A stretch of 32,564 bases of DNA from a bacterium (GCA_018830885.1 JAHJRI010000210.1:1-32564); one strand, 5' to 3'. Counted from the first letter of the stretch, positions 1,407-25,062 are shown. The notes: generated by a model from the letters alone, not told the origin. Translations and numbers: made by a program.

Positions 1407-3134
1407 ATGATGCGTTTCAAACCAACTTGTCTATCCACCTGGGCCCTGTTTTTCTCAGTCCTGTTCCTTCTGTTTCCAATGGCCTGTCCGGATGAAATTC
1501 GGTCCGCCCAGAGAAATAAGTCTTTTCTGAAGGAATACACATTCGGGAAAAAACAGAAATTTAGAGCCGGGTTTGACGGCAGAACGATTATTGCCCAGTT
1601 TCAGCCCCGGTCGGGTGACGGCATTTATCGGTTTGCCAGCTGGACACTGGACAACTGGAAAAATCGATTTAACGATATTAAGAAATACAATCGGAATCGA
1701 CCCCTGTTGGTCCACCATTATGTCCAATTTCCGTTCAAGGCGCTGAATGGGGACATGCAGAGTATGGTGCTGCAGGCGGTTTTCGAAAACGATTCCAGCG
1801 AGGAGGATGGATGGGCGCATCGGGTAGTTTATTCAGGGGAGACGATCAGCCTGATTGCCGGCGTTTTCGCCCGCGACGATATTCCCCCGGAAACCCTTAT
1901 AAAATATAATGAACTGAAATATAAGGGGAGACGTCTCAAAAAAGGGGATACCATCATGATCCCCTGGAAATGGGTCAAGGAATCGCTCCATCTCAGGCCT
2001 ATCCTGGTGCGTGAACCCCTGACCATGGGGGAAGTGGAATATGATAAACGGTATGCCTATTATCGACTGCAAAAGGGCGAAAGCCTGTATTCGTCCGTTG
2101 TTGTCCGTTTCACCGGCCGTACCCTGGCGGAAGACGTCAACGAGATGGCCGATCAGCTCCTGAAATTGAACCGTATCCCGAACGCACATTTTATCCCGGT
2201 CGGTAAGAATCTCAAAATCCCCATTGAATGGATCAGTGAGGAGTATCTGATCCAGAAGCAGACCCTGGAAAAGGTCCCGGAGCCGGATGAAGCACCTGAA
2301 CCAAAAACCATGGCCAAAAAGGACCAGCCGATTCACATCATTCTGGACCCCGGTCACGGCGGTATCGATCCGGGGGCTGTCTTTGGATCGAAGCGAAAAG
2401 GGTTCCAGATTTTCGAGGATGAGACCGTCTATGACATCAGCCTCAGGGTGGCTGAGCTGCTGAAGAAGCAGCACTATATCGTCCATACCACCCTGGTCGA
2501 TCCCGACCAGCAGGATCCGGTCAAACTTCTGGGGACGGTAAAGGACGAGGATGAGTACATACCGGTATCACCCGAATATCAGGTTCGGAATGCCGGGATC
2601 GGCATCAATATGCGGATATACCTGGTTTGCGATATCTATAAACGCCTCATTGCCCAGAATGTGCCCCGGGAGAACATCCTGTTTCTGAGTCTGCACGGTG
2701 ATGCGTTGCACCCTTCGCTGAGGGGGGTCACGGTATACTTTCCGGATCACCGTCTGCGGACGGCCAGCTTTAAACTCAGCCAGCGTGTTTACAAGCGAAG
2801 GAAAGAATACCAGCGGGAACTCAAATTCAGGGACCGGGAAAATATCCGCTCCACCAAGGTCAGTTCGGAATTTGGGAAACAGGTCATTGCAAGCTTTCAG
2901 AAAGCGGGTATGGAAACGCACAGCTCCTTTGCCGTCAGGGGCTACTACTACCGCAAGGGAAAACGAACGCTGCCGGGGATTCTGCGTTACAGCACGATCC
3001 CCACTTCGGTGCTGGTTGAGGTGGGCAACCTGAATAACCTTCAGGATCGAACCGCTCTGCTCAAACCGGAATTTCGCCAGCAAATCGCCTCGACCCTGGT
3101 GGCATCCATTAATCAGTACTATGAGCGGATCTGA
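1407..3134 (+). CDS. N-acetylmuramoyl-L-alanine amidase with LysM domains
   Basis: A 575-aa exported cell-wall hydrolase. It starts with a hydrophobic signal segment (about 9-26). C27 follows PMA, so this might be an atypical lipobox, but it does not match the consensus well. Two LysM-like modules, about 139-187 (GETISLIAGVF...KKGDTIMIP) and 217-273 (KGESLYSSVVVRF...GKNLKIP), would bind peptidoglycan glycan chains. The C-terminal Amidase_3 domain (309-575) shows the zinc and catalytic residues expected of the AmiC family: H317 in DPGHGG, a Glu at 337 or 339 in FEDET, H430 in SLHGD, and E538 in VEVGN. It cleaves the amide between MurNAc and L-Ala of the stem peptide. An insertion of about 60 aa (362-400 and onward) precedes SLHGD. 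The ATG start gives a sensible signal peptide. Its 3' end overlaps the convergent gene by 26 bp. Confidence 0.92.
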   Translation: MMRFKPTCLSTWALFFSVLFLLFPMACPDEIRSAQRNKSFLKEYTFGKKQKFRAGFDGRTIIAQFQPRSGDGIYRFASWTLDNWKNRFNDIKKYNRNRPLLVHHYVQFPFKALNGDMQSMVLQAVFENDSSEEDGWAHRVVYSGETISLIAGVFARDDIPPETLIKYNELKYKGRRLKKGDTIMIPWKWVKESLHLRPILVREPLTMGEVEYDKRYAYYRLQKGESLYSSVVVRFTGRTLAEDVNEMADQLLKLNRIPNAHFIPVGKNLKIPIEWISEEYLIQKQTLEKVPEPDEAPEPKTMAKKDQPIHIILDPGHGGIDPGAVFGSKRKGFQIFEDETVYDISLRVAELLKKQHYIVHTTLVDPDQQDPVKLLGTVKDEDEYIPVSPEYQVRNAGIGINMRIYLVCDIYKRLIAQNVPRENILFLSLHGDALHPSLRGVTVYFPDHRLRTASFKLSQRVYKRRKEYQRELKFRDRENIRSTKVSSEFGKQVIASFQKAGMETHSSFAVRGYYYRKGKRTLPGILRYSTIPTSVLVEVGNLNNLQDRTALLKPEFRQQIASTLVASINQYYERI

Positions 3135-12585: not shown

Positions 12586-14016
12586 ATGGAGAGTCAAAAA
12601 ATTTCATTGGATGACGTGTTCGCCCCCCGGGGGGTTGCTGTCGTGGGTGTTTCCGCCAACAGAATGGCCTTTGCGGAAATGGTGCTCCACTCCCTGCAAC
12701 AGGCTGAATTTCCGGCGATTTACCCGGTAAATCCCAAATACACGGAAATCATGGGCCTGCGGTGCTACGCGAGACTGACCGATATACCTGGTCCCGTGGA
12801 TCATGTCGTGGTCAATATCCGTGCTGAACTGGCCCTGCAGTTGCTGGATGACTGCGCCACCAAAGGGGTGCGGTCGGTTCACTTCTTTACCGCCGGTTTT
12901 GGGGAGAGTGGAATCAAGGAAAATGCCGAGCTGGAGCAGGCGATGCTGAAAAAGGCCCGTACCGGGGGCTTTCGGATTATCGGTCCCAACTGTATCGGTC
13001 TGTTCGTCCCCCGCGCCCGGCTGGTCAATGATTTCGGAAACCCCATGGAGCCGGGACCGGTAGGCTTCCTCTCCCAGAGCGGCGGGCACGCCCAGAACCT
13101 GCCGGGTTTCAGTGCCAATCGCGGTCTGCGTTTCAGCAAGGTGGTCAGCTATGGAAATGCCCTGGATATGGATGAAATCGAATTACTGGAATATTTTACC
13201 CGGGATGAAGAGACAAACGTCATTGCTGCCTACATTGAGGGGGTCCGAGACGGGCATCGGTTTGCCGCTGCCCTGAAAAAGGCCTCAGCAGCGAAACCGG
13301 TGATCATATACAAGGGTGGGCGAACGGAAGCCGGCATGCGGGCAGCACACGGACATACCGCCAGTATGACCAGCTCGGTGGATGTCTTTGACGCGGTCTG
13401 TAAACAGCGCAACGTGATTCTGGTCCGGGGCATGGAGGAGTTAATCGATGTGATCGTGGCCCTGCGGTTTATCAAGACAATCCCGACCGGGAAACAGGTT
13501 GCCCTGGTGGGTGCCGGTGGTGGACCCAGCGTGCTGGCAGGAGACGAGATGGAGCAGGAGGGGTTGAAAATGCCACCCTTTTCCGCAGCGCTGCAGGACC
13601 GGTTGAAACAGGTGTTGCCTGTGGCGGGCAGTATTCTGAGCAACCCCCTGGACACCCCGAACATGGCCTCTCCGGAGGCTATCCAGGCCGGGCTCGGTGT
13701 CTTGGCGAATGCCGCTGATATCGATATGATTGTCTATCACCTGGGCTTTCACCCCATCAGCAAATGGGGTATGGGTTTCTTTGCCGCGAGGGAACGAATT
13801 CAGCAGATTGTTGATGCCATGCGGACGGGTCTTGGCAGCAGCGGGAAGACATTATTGATCGCAATGCGCCCCCCCCAGACATTGGCAGGGATGCAGGAAT
13901 TTCTGACGGCCCAGGAGGTGTTTGTCGAAAACGAGCTGCCAGTCTTCCACGCCATGGGGGATCTGGCCCGGGCCATGTGCCGGGTGATTGACTGGCATAA
14001 TACCCGTCGCATGTGA
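12586..14016 (+). CDS. CoA-binding / NDP-forming acyl-CoA synthetase, alpha-type protein
   Basis: A 476-aa protein made of a CoA_binding Rossmann domain (about 8-135, FAPRGVAVVGVSANR), a succinyl-CoA-synthetase-like flavodoxin domain (about 150-290), and a second ligase-CoA domain (about 300-470). H257 in GHTAS corresponds to the phosphohistidine of NDP-forming acyl-CoA synthetases. The ATP-grasp (beta) module present in fused ~700-aa enzymes is absent and no ATP-grasp partner is adjacent, so a separate beta subunit would be needed for ATP- or ADP-coupled thioester chemistry. Expected reaction: acyl-CoA + ADP + Pi to acid + CoA + ATP, or the reverse; the acyl group is unknown. It is a distant paralogue of the gene at 23626-25062. 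The ATG follows CACAGGCGATCGT, a weak ribosome site. Confidence 0.85.
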   Translation: MESQKISLDDVFAPRGVAVVGVSANRMAFAEMVLHSLQQAEFPAIYPVNPKYTEIMGLRCYARLTDIPGPVDHVVVNIRAELALQLLDDCATKGVRSVHFFTAGFGESGIKENAELEQAMLKKARTGGFRIIGPNCIGLFVPRARLVNDFGNPMEPGPVGFLSQSGGHAQNLPGFSANRGLRFSKVVSYGNALDMDEIELLEYFTRDEETNVIAAYIEGVRDGHRFAAALKKASAAKPVIIYKGGRTEAGMRAAHGHTASMTSSVDVFDAVCKQRNVILVRGMEELIDVIVALRFIKTIPTGKQVALVGAGGGPSVLAGDEMEQEGLKMPPFSAALQDRLKQVLPVAGSILSNPLDTPNMASPEAIQAGLGVLANAADIDMIVYHLGFHPISKWGMGFFAARERIQQIVDAMRTGLGSSGKTLLIAMRPPQTLAGMQEFLTAQEVFVENELPVFHAMGDLARAMCRVIDWHNTRRM

Positions 14017-16461: not shown

Positions 16462-17307
16462 ATGGATATCTATTATATTGACGGAGCGTTTGTCGAGGAA
16501 GACAAGGCCGTGATTTCCGTCAAGGACATTGTGGTTTTAAGGGGATACGGCGTGTTCGATTTCCTGATTACCTACAACAAAAGACCGTTTCGGTTAAAAC
16601 AGCACGTTGAGCGTCTGCAGAATTCAGCCCGGCATATCGGGCTGGAGATCAGGCTCTCAACCGATGAGATCTGCGCGATCGCAGAAGAGACGGTCAAACG
16701 CAACAGCCACCATGACGAATCCAATATCCGCCTCGTTTATACCGGTGGTATCAGTTCCGATGGGGTCACCCCGGAAGGGAACGGCACCCTGATGGTCATG
16801 GTCACCCCCAGGCACCACCTGCCGGCTTGGTGGTATACGGACGGGGTCAAGATTATCACGGTGGATATCGAGCGTTTCATTCCCGGGGCGAAAAGTACCA
16901 ACTATCTGTCAGCCGTTTACGCACTGGGTCTCGCCAGGAAACAGAATGCGGTGGAATCGATCTATATCGATCGGGACAACCGGTTGCTGGAAGGCACCAC
17001 GACCAATATCTTCATGCTCCAGGGAAACAGGCTGATCACATCCGGGAGCAATATCCTGCCGGGGGTGACACGCAGCGTGATACTCGAACTGGCGGCGGAT
17101 CAATTTGATGTCGACGTCAGGGATATTGACAAGAGCGAGTTGTCCGCCGCAGAGGAGATATTTATCACGGCTTCCAACAAGGAGGTGGTGCCTGTTATCG
17201 CCGTTGACGACCGGTCTGTTGGCGATGGAAAACCGGGACCGAAAACACGCCGGCTGATGAAACTGTTCGGGGACCATACAACGGCCTACGGCCAGGGAAA
17301 CGTGTAA
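16462..17307 (+). CDS. Class IV PLP aminotransferase (D-amino-acid or branched-chain type)
   Basis: A 281-aa fold-type IV aminotransferase. The PLP lysine is K144 in PGAKSTNYLSAV, and the conserved E177 in LLEGTTTNIF contacts the pyridine nitrogen. NILPGVTRS (198-205) is the phosphate-loop region. Family members include D-amino-acid transaminase (Dat), branched-chain aminotransferase (IlvE) and aminodeoxychorismate lyase. Immediate coupling to an alanine racemase (1-nt gap), and the D-amino-acid genes that follow, favour a Dat-like role of making D-Glu or other D-amino acids from keto acids with D-Ala as donor. That is context inference, since the residues do not separate Dat from IlvE by eye. 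The ATG at 16462 has AAGGGG 6 nt upstream and starts at the family's usual N-terminus (MDIYYIDGAFV). Confidence 0.88.
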   Translation: MDIYYIDGAFVEEDKAVISVKDIVVLRGYGVFDFLITYNKRPFRLKQHVERLQNSARHIGLEIRLSTDEICAIAEETVKRNSHHDESNIRLVYTGGISSDGVTPEGNGTLMVMVTPRHHLPAWWYTDGVKIITVDIERFIPGAKSTNYLSAVYALGLARKQNAVESIYIDRDNRLLEGTTTNIFMLQGNRLITSGSNILPGVTRSVILELAADQFDVDVRDIDKSELSAAEEIFITASNKEVVPVIAVDDRSVGDGKPGPKTRRLMKLFGDHTTAYGQGNV

Positions 17308-17308
17308 A

Positions 17309-18484
17309 ATGAAGGAACCCCGGGGTTTCCCACCACTGATGAGAGCCGACATTGATCTGGTTGCGCTGGCCCATAACTACCGGGAGCTGCGTCGGATCAC
17401 GGCGCCGTCTGCTGCAATAATGGCTGTGGTCAAGGCGGATGGATACGGGCATGGTGCGGTCAGGGTTTCGGAAATCGCTCTTGAAAACGGGGCGGACCGG
17501 TTGGCGGTGGCCCGTATCAATGAAGCTGTGCTGCTGAGACAGGGGGGGATCAGCGCCCCACTGCTGCTGTTCGGGCTCTGCTGTCCTGAATATGTGGCCT
17601 GGATGGTCGACAATGATACCCGGGCATCCGTCAATTCCGGGGCTTCAGCCCGGTCCCTGTCAGAGGAAGCCGGCCGGCGGGGTGTGCGGTTGAAGGTTCA
17701 TCTCAAGGTGGATACCGGTATGGGGCGGCTGGGGGTCGTCACGGATCCGCTGCTGGTCCAGGATACCCCCAAAACGGGAATGAGCCGTGCTGTCAGGTCC
17801 ATTCTGGATATTTCGAAACTGCCACACCTGGAAATGGAGGGGATATATACCCATTTCGCCAGTGCCGACAGTGCCGATAAACGCTCAGCCCGCAGACAAC
17901 TGGAGCTGTTCCTGCAGCTGCTGGCGGAACTGAAAAAACACGGGCTCGAAGTTCCGCTGCGCCATGCGGCCAACAGCGCTGCGATCATCGAACTCCCGGA
18001 GTCCCATCTTGACCTTGTCCGACCCGGCATTGCCCAGTATGGTCTCTGGCCTTCTGGCGAAACCGATCGCGGGCGGATTCACCTCCAACCGGTCATGTCG
18101 CTGAAGGCCCGGATTATCCAGCTGAAGGAAGTTCCAGCAGGGTTTAAGGTCAGTTATGGCAGTACCTTCGAAACAGTGCAGCCGACACGGATCGCCACCA
18201 TACCGGTTGGCTACGCCGACGGCTATGACCGGGGGTTGTCTTCCCGCGGCACCATGCTGGTCCGCGGTGTCAGGGCCCCCATTGTGGGGCGGGTCTGTAT
18301 GGACCTCACCATGATCGATGTGGGTCGGGTGAAAGGGGTTGAGACCGGTGATGAGGTGGTTATGCTTGGAAAACAGGGTGATGACGAGATTCCGGCCGAT
18401 GAGATCGCCGGTCTGTTGCAAACGATCAATTACGAGGTTGTTTCGGCCATTACCGCCCGTGTGGAAAGACGGTACCAGACCTGA
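17309..18484 (+). CDS. alr: Alanine racemase
   Basis: A 391-aa PLP enzyme interconverting L- and D-alanine. The PLP lysine is K42 in AVVKADGYGHG. The opposite catalytic base is Y283 in KVSYGST. IVGRVCMDLTMIDVG (325-339) and the closing barrel/beta domain are typical. SYGST replaces the commoner SYGRT. The start codon is one base after the transaminase stop, so the two are coupled. The proteins resemble core peptidoglycan Alr. Since it sits among four other D-amino-acid genes, it may be either the cell's only Alr or a dedicated copy. Confidence 0.94.
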   Translation: MKEPRGFPPLMRADIDLVALAHNYRELRRITAPSAAIMAVVKADGYGHGAVRVSEIALENGADRLAVARINEAVLLRQGGISAPLLLFGLCCPEYVAWMVDNDTRASVNSGASARSLSEEAGRRGVRLKVHLKVDTGMGRLGVVTDPLLVQDTPKTGMSRAVRSILDISKLPHLEMEGIYTHFASADSADKRSARRQLELFLQLLAELKKHGLEVPLRHAANSAAIIELPESHLDLVRPGIAQYGLWPSGETDRGRIHLQPVMSLKARIIQLKEVPAGFKVSYGSTFETVQPTRIATIPVGYADGYDRGLSSRGTMLVRGVRAPIVGRVCMDLTMIDVGRVKGVETGDEVVMLGKQGDDEIPADEIAGLLQTINYEVVSAITARVERRYQT

Positions 18485-18857
18485 AAATGATCATATGCCG
18501 AGGAGCACAGGCAGAGATGAAACAGTCCGGAAAACCCCCGTCCTGTTCCGTTTCAGGGACGAGAAGCCCTGTATGTCATTGAACTCATTCTCGCCGTTCT
18601 TCGTTGCGAGTCTCGTGAATTTAATCACACACAGGTCTCAGCTGCTGCTCAGAATCAGCAGTGAATCGTCAATGTCGTTAACTTAAAGGGCTTTTCTCAA
18701 TTGTCAGAGCACCATAGGGGTGTTGTTGCAAGAACCTTGGAAGCCATGGATGGCTTCCCGGAGCTCCAGGATGGATTTATGCGTTTCTTGAAATAAGATC
18801 CCTATGGTGCGGAACAGTCTTAAGGTAACGACATTGAGTGAATAGTCACAAAACAAT
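18485..18857. other. Gap interrupting the D-amino-acid cluster
   Basis: 373 bp between alr and the capA-like gene. 18519-18554 can form a bulged hairpin (GAAAC/GTTTC and GGAA/TTCC) without a T-tract. A 21-codon open frame (18517-18582) is preceded by GAGGAG 12 nt upstream but has no recognisable sequence. MITE-like copy 4 occupies most of the rest. Without the element and one copy of its flanking repeat the gap would be about 196 bp. Confidence 0.5.
18671..18836 (+). mobile_element. MITE-like hairpin element, copy 4
   Basis: The core AACCTTGGAAGCCATGGATG starts at 18733. The inner hairpin is GGAAGCC / GGCTTCC. The arms GCACCATAGGG (left) and CCCTATGGTGC (right, 18800-18810) pair perfectly and differ in sequence from the corresponding arms of copy 3. 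The tips AATGTCGTTAACTTAA and TTAAGGTAACGACATT are inverted repeats with one mismatch and match those of copy 3. The flanks AGTGAATCGTC (18660-18670) and AGTGAATAGTC (18837-18847) match at 10 of 11, a convincing target-site duplication. It separates alr from the capA-like gene and ends 21 bp before that gene's ATG. Confidence 0.88.
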
Positions 18858-20093
18858 ATGACAACCAGCCAGATATTGAACGCATTCGATTGGGCCAGTG
18901 GCCGGTGGGACTCTGCCGGGGGTGGGAAGACGGCCGCAGAAATCATGATTACGGCGGACTGGGCCCCCATCCGTGCCTTTGAACCCATTATTGCCCGGCA
19001 TCCGGAATCGATCTACGGGGACCTGCTACCGGAGCTGCGGCAGAGTGATCTGCGGATCGTCAATCTGGAGTGTCCCTTGACCGCCGGAGAAACCCAGGTC
19101 TGGAAAAGCGGTTCCATGTTCAAGGGTCTCCCCTCCCATATTCACGGGTTGACGACAGTTCCCTTCGACGTGGTGACAACGGCCAACAACCATGTTTTTG
19201 ACTACGGCCAGGCGGGTTTTCTGGAAACCCACCGTCTGCTGGCGGAAAACGGAATCCGTGCGGTGGGCTCAGGCCGGTCACTGCAGGAAGCGAGAGAGCC
19301 CCTGCGGGTGGAACGGAAGGGGATTCGGATCGGAATCGTCAACTTCAGCGAAGGTGAAGACCAGACGGCTGCCACGGCCGGCGAACCCGGTGTGTTTGGC
19401 TGGGAACTCGAGAGTGCCCGGGAATCGGTCCGGAAGCTGCGGTCCAGCGTGGATGTGGTGATCGTGATCAGCCACTGCGGTGTCGAGTATATTCCGTTTC
19501 CACCCCCATATGTGGTGCAGGCGTTTCAGGCACTGGCCGATGCCGGTGCGGATCTGGTGATCGGGCATCACCCCCATGTTCCCCAGGGTGTCCAGATCTA
19601 CCAGGGCGTCCCCATCTGCTACAGTCTCGGCAATTTCGTCTTTTACCAGGAGACAGACCTTGTCTATCGAAAAACCGGTTACATGGTGCGGGCAGGCGTG
19701 TCGAAAAAAGGGGTCACGGAAATTGAGCTGATTCCCTATGACATCCAGGCAGACCGCCTCGCCCTGTTGCAGAAAGAAAAAAGAGACTGGTTTTTTGAAT
19801 CTTTGCAGCAGGTCTCCCGTCCTCTGGCAGAACCGGCTGGAGTAGTGGACGCATGGCATGGTTTCCTCTGCCGGTACGGAAAGAGGGGGTTTCAGGATGA
19901 AATCAGCATGCTGATGGCACGACTGGATGCCGAACCGGAAAAAGGGGCGGCCATGTTCAGAAACCGGATTACAACCCGGCAGCATCAGCAGCACTGGGTT
20001 GATACCCTGAACCGGATTATCACCGGGACCATCGACCAGGCCCCTGACTGGGCCCTCTCACTGCTCGAGCAGTGGATGACCCAAAAACGGTAA
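18858..20093 (+). CDS. CapA-family protein (PGA_cap, metallophosphatase-like fold)
   Basis: A 411-aa protein of the CapA/PGA_cap family. Its motifs in order are a strand start MITADWAPI (30-38), VNLECPLT (68-75), the metal-site-like TANNHVFDYG (108-117), an ISHCGVEY block, and ADLVIGHHPHVPQG followed by YSLGNFVF. No signal peptide or TM is seen, unlike many CapA proteins. In Bacillus, CapA is needed for poly-gamma-D-glutamate export or synthesis, but its catalytic role is unsettled; homologues occur in many amino-acid polymer or peptide loci. The ATG at 18858 lacks a ribosome site and lies just past an inserted element; an internal ATG at 18945 is a possible alternative start. No CapB ligase or CapC is nearby. 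Confidence 0.88.
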   Translation: MTTSQILNAFDWASGRWDSAGGGKTAAEIMITADWAPIRAFEPIIARHPESIYGDLLPELRQSDLRIVNLECPLTAGETQVWKSGSMFKGLPSHIHGLTTVPFDVVTTANNHVFDYGQAGFLETHRLLAENGIRAVGSGRSLQEAREPLRVERKGIRIGIVNFSEGEDQTAATAGEPGVFGWELESARESVRKLRSSVDVVIVISHCGVEYIPFPPPYVVQAFQALADAGADLVIGHHPHVPQGVQIYQGVPICYSLGNFVFYQETDLVYRKTGYMVRAGVSKKGVTEIELIPYDIQADRLALLQKEKRDWFFESLQQVSRPLAEPAGVVDAWHGFLCRYGKRGFQDEISMLMARLDAEPEKGAAMFRNRITTRQHQQHWVDTLNRIITGTIDQAPDWALSLLEQWMTQKR

Positions 20094-20115
20094 ACACTCT
20101 TTTTACAGGCAAATA

Positions 20116-21027
20116 TTGAAAACACAACCGGGACAACCAGAGACCCTTGCCATCGTGATCGTCGATTCAGGTATGGGTGGATTGTCGATCTGTGCGGAGA
20201 TTGCCAGCGGGTTGTCTGAAAAACGCAGTTTCCGGCAGGTTGTCCTGACCTATTTCAATGCCTGGCCTGAGCAGAACCGGGGATACAATGCCCTGCCCGG
20301 GATGGCGGATCGCATCCGCGTGTTTAATTCGGCCCTGCTGGCCATCGAGGGCTTGGCCCCGGACATTATTCTGATTGCCTGTAACACCCTGTCTATCCTA
20401 TACCCGCAGACCCCTTTTGCCGCTGCAGCCCGTGTGCCGGTCATGGGGATTATCGATTTCGGGGTTGAGATGGTTTACGAGCAGCTGCAGCGCTATCCGG
20501 AAAGCCAGGCCATTATCCTGGGGACCCTGACCACGGTCGAAACCCGGACCCATGCAATCGCCTTGATCAACAAGGGAATTGCCTCGGAACGCATTATCGG
20601 CCAGCCCTGCGATCAACTGGCGACAAAGATCGAAAGCGGTCCGGAGAGTGCGGTCGTCAGCCAGATGATCGACCGTTTTATCAGGGAAGCGGCTGGAAAG
20701 GTGCGTCCACAGGCTACCCCCGTGTTCGCCGTTTTCGGCTGCACCCATTATGGCTACAGCCGGGGACTTTTTGAAGCATCGCTCAAGCGCCACATCGGTG
20801 AGCAGATCCGTATCATCAATCCCAATACGGCCATGAGCCATCACCTGCTTGACCAATACAGGTCGGGCGTGGTGGCGGAAACGGATGTGCAGGTCAGGGT
20901 GGTGTCCAGGATTATCTGGCGGGATGAGATGGTCAATGCCATTGCTGCCAGCCTGCTGGCCATGTCGCCTCCTACGGCGGAGGCGTTGAGAAACTACCGA
21001 CCGGATCCCGACCTGTTTGCGGTTTGA
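20116..21027 (+). CDS. Aspartate/glutamate racemase-family protein (MurI-like)
   Basis: A 303-aa cofactor-independent racemase fold. The two catalytic cysteines are in the expected places: C89 in ACNTLS and C209 in FGCTHYG. D17 in VDSGMGGLS matches the conserved Asp of glutamate racemase. It departs from MurI in CTHYG (MurI usually has CTHYP) and in length (MurI about 260-285), so it is a divergent member and the substrate (D-Glu, D-Asp or other) is open. The only start that keeps the N-terminal strand is a TTG at 20116 with CAGG about 9 nt upstream, 22 bp after the previous stop. Position in the cluster points to D-amino-acid supply. Confidence 0.87.
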   Translation: MKTQPGQPETLAIVIVDSGMGGLSICAEIASGLSEKRSFRQVVLTYFNAWPEQNRGYNALPGMADRIRVFNSALLAIEGLAPDIILIACNTLSILYPQTPFAAAARVPVMGIIDFGVEMVYEQLQRYPESQAIILGTLTTVETRTHAIALINKGIASERIIGQPCDQLATKIESGPESAVVSQMIDRFIREAAGKVRPQATPVFAVFGCTHYGYSRGLFEASLKRHIGEQIRIINPNTAMSHHLLDQYRSGVVAETDVQVRVVSRIIWRDEMVNAIAASLLAMSPPTAEALRNYRPDPDLFAV

Positions 21028-21158
21028 CGTTGAACGAACCATGGCACGATGCCGGTTGCACCGATAAAAGAGAGTGGCGGATCAGAGATCTGTCCCTTAA
21101 GGCCTGTTGCATGAGAATCTGAAGATGTTTAACCCCGGAACTGAAACCTGAGCTGGAT

Positions 21159-22154
21159 ATGGAAATGAAAAAAGTATTGATTATCACAGGCCCCGCTGGA
21201 GATGCCCAGGGATGGGGGGATTTGAAAGTGACCGAAACGATGTGCGAGGCAATCAATGCCAAGGGCAAGCTCGCAGAGATCGCTTATGTCGAAACCATGG
21301 ATGACTTCAAGAAAGCGATGACTGAAAAATCCTATGACATTATCTGGAGTGCTCTCTATTATATCTCATCCAGGTCTGAATTCATCGGTGTCAGCAAAGA
21401 CGGGGATTCATGGCTGGCGGACTATTTTGATGCCCGGCAGATTCCCTATATCGGTCCCAATGCACTGACCATGAAACAGCTGATCCAGAAATTCTGGACC
21501 CATCAGATCCTCAGGGAACACAACGTGGCTGTTCCCTATCACTATCTGGTCGATGTGAACGATCCCCTTCCGGATGTTACCTTTCCCGCATTTATCAAAC
21601 CCAGCACCGAATCGAGATCGATCGGCATCTCCGATGAAAGCGTGGCCAATACGCCGGCCGAACTGGAAAAAAGAGTCCGATATGTTCAGACCGAGCTGGA
21701 GCAGCCGGCACTGGTGGAGGAGTACCTCCCCGGGGAGGAGTACACGGTCCTGATGCTGGGGAATGGGGATCGCCAGGAGTTCCTGACCTGCACGGTGCAT
21801 GTGGACGCACACCACTATAAGAAGTATCCCATCCTGCGCAGTGATCTGAGAGGGGTCGGGATCACAAAAATGCGTCTACCGACCACCCGGATTGAAGAAG
21901 CCGTCGCCCTTTGTCGGCAGGCCACGGATGTCCTCAAGTGCTGGGATCATGTCAGGGTCGATATGCGGGTGGATGGCCAGGGCCGACTCAAGGTCATCGA
22001 AGTCAACGGGATTCCGGGACTTAAACCCGTCAAGAGTTGGAGTCCCCAGATCTATACCCTGTACCACCCGTCCCCTGATGGCGAAATGGCAGACTATCGC
22101 AACCTGCTGGATCACATCGTGGATTCAGCCCTGGCCCGGTATAACCTGATCTAG
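21159..22154 (+). CDS. D-Ala-D-Ala ligase-like ATP-grasp ligase
   Basis: A 331-aa ATP-grasp enzyme of the Ddl type. The ATP-binding strand reads FPAFIKPSTESRSIGIS (about 145-160), followed by VEEYLPGEEYTV (about 188-199) and the Mg/ATP loop VDMRVDGQGRLKVIEVNGIPGL (about 268-289), where E and N would bind metal. The N-terminal substrate domain (LIITGPAGDAQGWGDLKV) lacks the GGxSxEhxVS signature of housekeeping Ddl, so the amino-acid substrates may differ. Expected chemistry: ATP-dependent peptide or amide bond formation via an acyl phosphate, with D-amino acids as the likely substrates given the neighbours. The ATG at 21159 is followed by another at 21165; either is possible. It is the last gene of the cluster, followed by a strong hairpin. 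Confidence 0.85.
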   Translation: MEMKKVLIITGPAGDAQGWGDLKVTETMCEAINAKGKLAEIAYVETMDDFKKAMTEKSYDIIWSALYYISSRSEFIGVSKDGDSWLADYFDARQIPYIGPNALTMKQLIQKFWTHQILREHNVAVPYHYLVDVNDPLPDVTFPAFIKPSTESRSIGISDESVANTPAELEKRVRYVQTELEQPALVEEYLPGEEYTVLMLGNGDRQEFLTCTVHVDAHHYKKYPILRSDLRGVGITKMRLPTTRIEEAVALCRQATDVLKCWDHVRVDMRVDGQGRLKVIEVNGIPGLKPVKSWSPQIYTLYHPSPDGEMADYRNLLDHIVDSALARYNLI

Positions 22155-23105: not shown

Positions 23106-23625
23106 GGGGCCCCCTCCGCACATCCCTTCCCGCTTCCAGGTCAGGGCGCTCAACCCCCTGACTGATGTTCAGCCTGCGGTGCCGGGTTTTATTGATTCGG
23201 GACCACCTCATCCATCACGATCCGGCAAGCTCTGGTGGGGGTATCCAGGTCGATATTTCCATGATTGGATACAATCCTAGCCAAAACAGGGAAAAAGAGG
23301 TCTGTTTGGGGTCATTTTCCTGAATTAACGGTAGACGTTTTCAGCGTTGTTTATATATAAAGGAGGGAGCCAGACAGAACGGTCGACAAACCGGAAATCC
23401 CTCTGACAAACTTGAGAGGATCAGGATCGCGGTGTTCCGGACGATGCCGGAGGATCCGGTGGTCGGGTATCCAGTTGAAAACGGAGTCGGCAGCAAGATT
23501 CGTTTTTTTTGGGTGAACCTGGCCATTTGGTATACAATCTTAACCTGCTGACCGGTCCCTTCACACCTCATCAGTTCCATGGGGATGATGGTAATCCCCG
23601 GTTTAACCATCCATACAGGTATCTT
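23106..23625. other. Intergenic region between regulator and CoA-ligase-like gene
   Basis: About 520 bp. It contains an operator-like ATTGGATACAAT (23264-23275), a strong AAAGGAGG (23359-23366) with no start codon within reach, and the operator-like site at 23525-23539. No small gene is supported. Confidence 0.5.
23525..23539 (+). promoter_or_regulatory. Candidate GntR operator upstream of the CoA-ligase-like gene
   Basis: ATTTGGTATACAATC, nearly identical to the site upstream of the regulator (opposite strand). TACAAT (23533-23538) inside it is a 5-of-6 match to a -10 hexamer, so regulator binding would occlude the promoter. It is about 87 bp before the chosen GTG start. Confidence 0.5.
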
Positions 23626-25062
23626 GTGTCAACGGAATTAGTAGCCCAACTCGACGGGATCTTTAAACCGGCTTCCGTGGCTGTTGTCGGTGCCGGCACC
23701 AGTCTGGCGAAGTGGGGCGGGCGCCTGTTCACCCGGCTGCTGGAATCGGATTACCGGGGGCGGATCTATCCCGTCAATCCAAAACATGCGGATATCTTCG
23801 GTATCAAGTCGTTTGCCCGGCTGGGGGATATTGAGGGCAGTATCGACCTGGCGATTCTCTGCCTGCCGGCGGTCAAGATTCCGGGACTGTTGAAAGAGTG
23901 TATCCAAAAAGGGGTCAAGGGAGCGGTGATTATCACGGCGGATTTCGCTGAAACCGGGGAGGCGGGGAAGGCCCTGGAAATGGAGGCGGTCGCCATTGCC
24001 CGGCAGGGAGGGCTCAGGTTTATCGGTCCCAACTGCATGGGTATCTGGTCTTCAGCGGTGGGGTTGAACCTGGCGTTACCCAGAAAGCCGATTTCCGGGC
24101 ATCTGGCGTTCATTTCCCAGAGCGGCACCTACGGTATCACCCTGGCGCGTATTGCGGATGACAAGGGGTTCGGCCTGAGCAAATTCATCAGTTTCGGGAA
24201 CCAGGCCGATCTGCTGGTCTCTGAATACCTGGAATACCTGGCCCAGGATCCTGACACCAAAGTGATTGCCCTGTACCTGGAAGGGCTCAAGGATGGCCGC
24301 AAGTTCTTCGAGACTGCCCGGAGGGTGGTCCAGATAAAGCCGATCCTGGTTTTCAAGGGCGGGAGCAGTCCCCAGGGAGCCCGGGCAACTGTTTCTCATG
24401 CGGCGTCCATCGCTGGCGAGGATCGCATTTTTGATGCCATGTGCCGACAGGTGGGCATTATCCGCGTTACGGAAATAGAGCACCTGTTTATCATGGCCGA
24501 AGCATTGATCTGCCAGCCATTGCCACGGGGAAACCGCATTGCGGTGGTGGGCAGCGGTGGACAGGGGGTTGTGACGACGGACGCCCTGGCGACGCATGGG
24601 CTGGAAGTCCCTGATTTTGATGATCTGTCAAAGGCGGCATTGAAGGCGGTTCTGCCCGCCCATGCACCGGTTCCCACCAATCCGGTTGATTTTGCAGGCG
24701 GCACCCGTACAGCCATGAAGGAGGCCGAGGTGGCCCATATTCTGGCCTCGCTGGACTATATTGACGGCTTGATTACCAATGTCCCCATGCATTTGACCGG
24801 TGGAAAATCCGTTGGTGATTATATGCGGGGGTCCATCGAGGGTGCCGAACACTTTGCCCGGATTCCGGCCGAAACCGGGAAACCGGTGGTGACGCTGCAA
24901 TCCAAGGGAATCACCAATCTCAACATCCGGGAGGTCTTGAAAGCTGCCAGAATCCCGATCTATGACAGTCCGGAGGATTGCAGTCGTGCCATGGCAGCTC
25001 TGGTAAAATATGCCCGTATCCGGCATTCCGCCGGTAACATCCCCGGGGGATCAGCCAATTGA
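23626..25062 (+). CDS. CoA-binding / NDP-forming acyl-CoA synthetase, alpha-type protein
   Basis: A 478-aa protein with the same architecture as the one at 12586. CoA_binding domain (about 7-140, IFKPASVAVVGAGTSLAKWGG), succinyl-CoA-synthetase-like domain (LAFISQSGTYG near 160), then a C-terminal ligase-CoA domain. H258 in VSHAASIAG matches the phosphohistidine site. The ATP-grasp part is missing. A GTG at 23626 with CAGGT 8 nt upstream puts the start at the usual family N-terminus; the frame is open to a TTG at 23509, but that would put the operator-like site and a non-family stretch inside the protein. It is probably part of the GntR regulon. The acyl substrate is unknown. Confidence 0.85.
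   Translation: MSTELVAQLDGIFKPASVAVVGAGTSLAKWGGRLFTRLLESDYRGRIYPVNPKHADIFGIKSFARLGDIEGSIDLAILCLPAVKIPGLLKECIQKGVKGAVIITADFAETGEAGKALEMEAVAIARQGGLRFIGPNCMGIWSSAVGLNLALPRKPISGHLAFISQSGTYGITLARIADDKGFGLSKFISFGNQADLLVSEYLEYLAQDPDTKVIALYLEGLKDGRKFFETARRVVQIKPILVFKGGSSPQGARATVSHAASIAGEDRIFDAMCRQVGIIRVTEIEHLFIMAEALICQPLPRGNRIAVVGSGGQGVVTTDALATHGLEVPDFDDLSKAALKAVLPAHAPVPTNPVDFAGGTRTAMKEAEVAHILASLDYIDGLITNVPMHLTGGKSVGDYMRGSIEGAEHFARIPAETGKPVVTLQSKGITNLNIREVLKAARIPIYDSPEDCSRAMAALVKYARIRHSAGNIPGGSAN

Follow-up and report, generated by a model that had tools for sequence, protein, structure and literature searches.

The DNA analyzed here is a contig of 32,564 nucleotides (G000:C155:1-32564, hereafter the window) from a metagenome-assembled genome (MAG; 7.4 Mb, 496 contigs, 93% complete, 6.4% contaminated) whose host is taken as a SAR324 bacterium. 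On its plus strand, positions 16462-22154 hold five open reading frames (ORFs) in the order AT4-ALR-CAPA-RAC-LIG, that is, a class-IV transaminase, an alanine racemase, a CapA-like protein, a MurI-like racemase, and a Ddl-like ATP-grasp ligase. The grouping of these genes is real and not a product of chance, since the same five-gene order recurs in Desulfobacteraceae and CAPA, RAC, and LIG are also found together in Acidobacteriota. These last three genes are the core of the system, to which ALR and AT4 are added as a supply module in the form found in Desulfobacterota and SAR324. With confidence slightly short of even, the five genes are read as a horizontally mobile, dedicated pathway cluster centered on D-glutamate (D-Glu). 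More tentatively, CAPA-RAC-LIG may represent an undescribed core, spread over several phyla, which makes a D-glutamate dipeptide or conjugate in the cytosol. CAPA would then be a new metal-dependent epimerase or hydrolase of peptides or amino acids, and alanine racemase, D-transaminase, and sometimes alanine dehydrogenase would be add-on supply enzymes. The features of the locus are as follows.

16462-17307, plus strand: AT4, fold-IV pyridoxal phosphate (PLP) transaminase, predicted group II D-amino-acid transaminase (Aminotran_4, R27/R90 dyad, K144)
17309-18484, plus strand: ALR, alanine racemase, the second copy in the genome beside a MurF-Alr fusion (TIGR00492)
18669-18837, no strand: repeat element between ALR and CAPA, outside the conserved cluster (inverted-repeat ends)
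18858-20093, plus strand: CAPA, CapA-like (PGA_cap) calcineurin-fold protein, apparently cytosolic, core gene (PGA_cap, fold match MslH)
20116-21027, plus strand: RAC, MurI-like (glutamate) racemase, core gene (Asp_Glu_race, catalytic cysteines C89 and C209)
21159-22154, plus strand: LIG, Ddl-fold ATP-grasp ligase, apparently with changed substrate pockets, core gene (Dala_Dala_lig_C)

The distribution of the cluster was followed by scanning an alignment of RAC against genome contigs from 84,980 species and then applying tblastn with all cluster proteins; LIG as a single-protein query had returned no matches against the genome contigs, and the RAC alignment then recovered clusters. The full five-gene order occurs in Desulfobacteraceae OB14 (L116), in CSMAG_1918 (L119, where the contig ends within LIG), and in a Desulfotignum MAG (L120), and the LIG proteins of the Desulfobacteraceae are 57-65% identical to that of the window. 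Two more Desulfotignum MAGs carry ALR-CAPA-RAC-LIG (L121, and L125 with LIG cut by the contig end), while a Lentisphaerae MAG has CAPA-RAC-LIG with an apparently interrupted LIG (L118), an Aminicenantes MAG has RAC-LIG with CAPA facing them (L169), and a gammaproteobacterium has a CAPA-RAC pair at a contig end (L174). So that RAC as the starting point would not bias the result, LIG alone was also searched, with hits in 4 of 395 genomes in the phylum of OB14 and in 11 of 396 in that of the Aminicenantes MAG. CAPA and RAC lie close to LIG in all 13 new loci recovered in this way at 50% identity or more, even if two genes intervene between LIG and CAPA at L228; a single LIG relative at 40% (L235) is accompanied by neither. 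In the Acidobacteriota, RAC-LIG is accompanied by a CAPA gene on the other strand but by neither AT4 nor ALR; the second copy in OB14 (L212) has AT4 and lacks ALR. Trees of LIG, CAPA, and RAC give the same two main groups, one with the Acidobacteriota copies and the other with those of Desulfobacterota and SAR324. It is from the LIG-alone loci, the Acidobacteriota architecture, and this tree grouping that CAPA-RAC-LIG is identified as the core.

Within SAR324 the picture is different. Among the 52 genomes searched, the cluster is present in no genome except the host, and LIG, AT4, and CAPA as queries recovered from the SAR324 relatives only 25-36% relatives in other contexts. As no other SAR324 genome searched has a close orthologue, the cluster was probably acquired horizontally. 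Collections of plasmids and phages contained no LIG, and the CAPA matches in them, located in haloarchaeal replicons, reached only about 34%. An earlier note on this DNA had proposed a dedicated D-amino-acid cluster and a neighborhood search for its five families: the conserved order and enzyme content support the proposal, and the search revealed strong co-occurrence outside SAR324. The SAR324 relatives themselves lack the cluster.

The enzyme content was assessed by alignment and by structural models. All five ORFs lie where the earlier note had placed them, on one strand, and Pfam and NCBIfam agree with their assignments; in AT4, RAC, and LIG, every catalytic residue that was checked is retained. 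LIG matches Dala_Dala_lig_C (61 bits), and the 50 best fold matches of its AlphaFold model (predicted local distance difference test, pLDDT, 91.7) are all Ddl or Van ligases. It resembles Ddl and VanA, the D-Ala-D-Ala and D-Ala-D-Lac ligases, in its fold (template modeling score about 0.7), in the ATP-grasp/Mg core (K147, E187, R266, D268, E281, and N283, invariant in 19 orthologues), and in the acceptor Ser (S293). However, it is only about 20% identical to these enzymes and far under the Ddl models (82 bits versus 243 with the best subfamily model), its omega loop is different, its acceptor site holds a Trp along with basic residues, and its gene is always beside CAPA and RAC. Because of the Lys inserted next to the acceptor Ser (K292), the nearly invariant K289 and R231, and the Trp following the Ser (W294), the pocket appears suited to an acidic substrate such as D-Glu. 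Judging from the model, LIG looks like a Ddl-type ligase with altered substrate pockets and not like a housekeeping Ddl.

RAC, which the earlier note had described as divergent, barely exceeds the Asp_Glu_race cut-off (32 bits versus 31), and its matches in the PDB are all glutamate racemases. Like MurI and RacE, it has the motifs DSG, CNT, and CTH, which include the two catalytic cysteines (C89 and C209), and DS, CNT, and CTH are invariant in 21 orthologues. It differs from them in its score with the MurI model, given below, and in coexisting with a canonical MurI in OB14. On its motifs, RAC is classed as a MurI-like racemase. A separate set of RAC relatives in Bacteroidota, Ignavibacteria, Neomarinimicrobiota, KSB1, and others bears N-terminal export-like leaders (L143:5459-13186 and L147:4573-11516; also L117, L127, L130, and L145). 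These relatives often adjoin genes for gamma-glutamyltranspeptidase and CapB-like, CapC, and AstE/AspA-like proteins, and many of their genomes also have a canonical MurI; they are possibly exported glutamate racemases tied to poly-gamma-glutamate.

CAPA belongs to the PGA_cap family (216 bits), and the best fold match of its AlphaFold model (pLDDT 92.9) is the lasso-peptide epimerase MslH, with an E value of 1e-21 that leads the next match by eleven orders of magnitude. MslH has eight active-site residues (PMC10406935), for seven of which the 22 CAPAs compared have invariant counterparts. Of the metal ligands E44, N87, H259, and H261, CAPA keeps the first three as E71, N111, and H206, but an invariant Gly (G208) replaces the fourth; the catalytic dyads H88/D91 and H295/D11 correspond to H112/D115 and H240/D34, invariant in 22 orthologues, with D34 matched through the family motif since the HMMER alignment begins after it. 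CAPA further differs from MslH in an extra C-terminal helical region and in the lack of lasso-peptide genes nearby. Hydropathy detected no segment resembling a signal peptide or a transmembrane helix in the 22 orthologues, and from its sequence CAPA looks cytosolic.

The two supply enzymes are of better-known types. ALR has both the N- and the C-terminal Ala_racemase domain and scores 378 bits with TIGR00492, whose cut-off is 168, and is on this basis assigned as a standard alanine racemase. AT4 (Aminotran_4, 156 bits) aligns with the D-amino-acid transaminase of H. hydrossis across LRGxGxFD and IRxVxTGGxSxDGxTP. Its R27 and R90, invariant in seven orthologues, align with R28 and R90 of that enzyme (PMC8401098), and the PLP lysine K144 is invariant as well. 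An Arg dyad made of a first-shell Arg and a second-shell Arg or Lys marks the group II D-transaminases (PMC12429042). AT4 shares the dyad and the GGxSxDGxTP loop with the H. hydrossis, Aminobacterium, and Blastococcus types of this group, although it has T179 in place of a third Arg (R179) and its nearest structures by score lie elsewhere. It is predicted to be a group II D-amino-acid transaminase, D-specificity included.

From this set of enzymes we infer the substrates, the order of the steps, the role of CAPA, and the product. RAC would make D-Glu from L-Glu; where all five genes are present, ALR would convert L-Ala to D-Ala, from which AT4 could transfer the amino group to 2-oxoglutarate, giving D-Glu and pyruvate, or to a different keto acid, giving the matching D-amino acid. 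At the expense of ATP, LIG would activate one small amino-acid substrate in the form of an acyl phosphate and couple this to a D-amino acid, most likely an acidic one, as the second substrate, with formation of a D-Glu-containing dipeptide or conjugate. CAPA, as a cytosolic metal-dependent enzyme, might hydrolyze the product or a precursor or epimerize it at C-alpha. The earlier note had suggested that D-Ala and either D-Glu or D-Asp are made and joined. Alanine racemase, likely D-transaminase, MurI-like racemase, and Ddl-fold ligase agree with this in general, but D-Glu is a better fit than D-Asp because two independent routes, RAC and ALR plus AT4, can both reach it. Just upstream of the cluster at L209 lies a gene for alanine dehydrogenase. 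The route from alanine dehydrogenase through alanine racemase to D-transaminase is used in biotechnology, and by analogy the L209 enzyme would complete it, feeding ALR and AT4. The genes that accompany only some copies of the cluster, namely those for an N-formylglutamate-amidohydrolase-like protein, a TRAP transporter, and 5-oxoprolinase-type carboxyltransferase-domain proteins, together with a glutamine-amidotransferase-like gene at L227 and L228, hint loosely at glutamate-type compounds.

Several observations weigh against the proposed D-glutamate pathway. RAC and LIG fall below the cut-offs of their nearest families, LIG with 64 bits versus 246 for the Ddl model TIGR01205, in line with the missing housekeeping signature remarked on in the earlier note, and RAC with 48 bits versus 147 for the MurI model TIGR00067. 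The top-scoring structures for AT4 are branched-chain transaminases, and its sequence is matched best by archaeal enzymes of that type. No protein of the host genome passes the MurI cut-off, and some copies of the cluster have neighbors, namely a TRAP transporter and genes for 5-oxoprolinase-type carboxyltransferase-domain and N-formylglutamate-amidohydrolase-like proteins, which would also suit a scavenging function.

The missing MurI bears on an unlikely alternative, in which the cluster is a peptidoglycan precursor set, with RAC (or ALR and AT4) as the D-Glu source of the host and LIG as a spare D-Ala-D-Ala ligase. None of the 52 SAR324 genomes (G000 to G051) has a protein above the MurI cut-off, so RAC could feed peptidoglycan in this host. 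SAR324 family f4 has a RAC-like protein, encoded beside genes resembling priA or smc, that may be its MurI, and alanine racemase with D-transaminase is a known route to D-Glu for the cell wall (PMC8788868). Nevertheless, the host has a canonical Ddl on contig C252 (228 bits) and a fusion of MurF and alanine racemase in one protein of 893 amino acids (G000:C84; L067:3634-6312). The separate housekeeping alr and ddl asked about in the earlier note are thus in place, and only a canonical murI is missing, from the host as from the other SAR324 genomes. OB14, in turn, encodes a canonical MurI (220 bits, C194) and a canonical Ddl in addition to its two clusters. Families f1 to f3, among them that of the host, have neither RAC nor the cluster apart from the host genome itself; with a match to the MurI model lacking too, they presumably have another D-Glu source. 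Moreover, LIG fails the Ddl models and CAPA has no role in peptidoglycan synthesis. Given the separate Ddl and MurF-Alr of the host and the MurI beside two clusters in OB14, the cluster is probably not the peptidoglycan set.

A catabolic role, in which compounds containing D-Glu or D-Ala are scavenged and the racemases and the transaminase return D-amino acids to central metabolism, is rather improbable. Racemases and transaminases work reversibly, and the variable neighbors would fit: a TRAP transporter precedes the second copy in OB14, 5-oxoprolinase-type carboxyltransferase-domain genes precede the gammaproteobacterial copy (L174), and an N-formylglutamate-amidohydrolase-like gene lies downstream in four loci (L120, L209, L210, and L211). 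The transporter and carboxyltransferase genes, however, are found at one locus each only, and the ATP-dependent ligase present in every complete cluster would be odd for a breakdown pathway.

Other Ddl-like genes were observed elsewhere. In the host genome, a methyltransferase/Ddl-like fusion adjoins an N-formylglutamate-amidohydrolase-like gene (L069:4366-9395, G000:C14), at a locus that also holds a 36% relative of the amidohydrolase gene seen downstream of LIG elsewhere. A similar set with an additional gamma-glutamyltranspeptidase-like gene is found at L054:1140-5722 (G029:C603). In SAR324 family f3, tandem Ddl-like ATP-grasp genes stand beside a lysine-2,3-aminomutase-like gene (L050:4146-7631) or a histone-deacetylase-family gene (L053:1-4034); both sets are taken as small-molecule clusters.

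Slightly less probable still than scavenging is a capsule-type system, in which the cluster makes or tailors a polymer like poly-gamma-glutamate with CAPA acting as CapA. As in CapBCA/PgsBCA, a PGA_cap protein is paired with a glutamate racemase, and the RAC relatives at L143 and L147 adjoin CapB-like, CapC, and gamma-glutamyltranspeptidase genes. In contrast to CapA, CAPA has neither membrane anchor nor signal peptide, which weakens the link to a secreted amino-acid polymer drawn in the earlier note. That note had also reported CapB and CapC as absent, and in agreement with this neither was seen beside any five-gene or three-gene cluster, or in any neighborhood read (by ORF reading of the neighborhoods and not by whole-genome search). 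Furthermore, the ligase of the capsule systems is of the Mur-ligase type, while that of the cluster is of the Ddl type, which forms single bonds.

That the contig is a Desulfobacterota contaminant binned with a SAR324 MAG, and the cluster no SAR324 feature, is very improbable despite the 6.4% contamination, a guanine-cytosine content of 0.54 versus about 0.50 for sampled contigs of the genome, and the Desulfobacterota being the nearest cluster relatives, since the best matches to a LysM-amidase gene that the contig carries at 1407-3134 come from the SAR324 family of the host (56-58%), followed by other SAR324, and repeats of the contig recur on others, including C84 with the MurF-Alr fusion; the window is therefore taken as a genuine part of the MAG. 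The repeat in question resembles a miniature inverted-repeat transposable element, with inverted repeats at 18669-18686 and 18820-18837, and its relatives occur at other places in the window as well as on at least 10 further contigs of the genome. It lies in the gap of ~370 bp which separates ALR from CAPA in the window; in several other clusters these two genes almost touch.

An upstream short-chain dehydrogenase/reductase (SDR) gene and a downstream GntR gene are not counted as part of the cluster because neither recurs at other clusters. Farther out, acetate-CoA-ligase alpha-type genes flank the cluster on both sides (12586-14016 and 23509-25062), near genes for thiolase and acyl-CoA dehydrogenase. 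With the PADLOC models, no anti-phage defense family was matched at E 0.01.

The cluster brings known kinds of enzymes together in a conserved combination for which no description was found in the open literature searched, a limited library that yielded no paper on the five-gene set. To our knowledge, almost no activity has been assigned to cytosolic CapA-like proteins except MslH, and CAPA-RAC-LIG could help to assign them a function; likewise, it could show how Ddl-type ligases changed substrate. D-Amino acids beyond peptidoglycan are poorly charted, and a three-gene core found across several phyla, in which a MurI-like racemase is combined with a non-Ddl ligase, offers a small, testable system for a new D-Glu metabolite.

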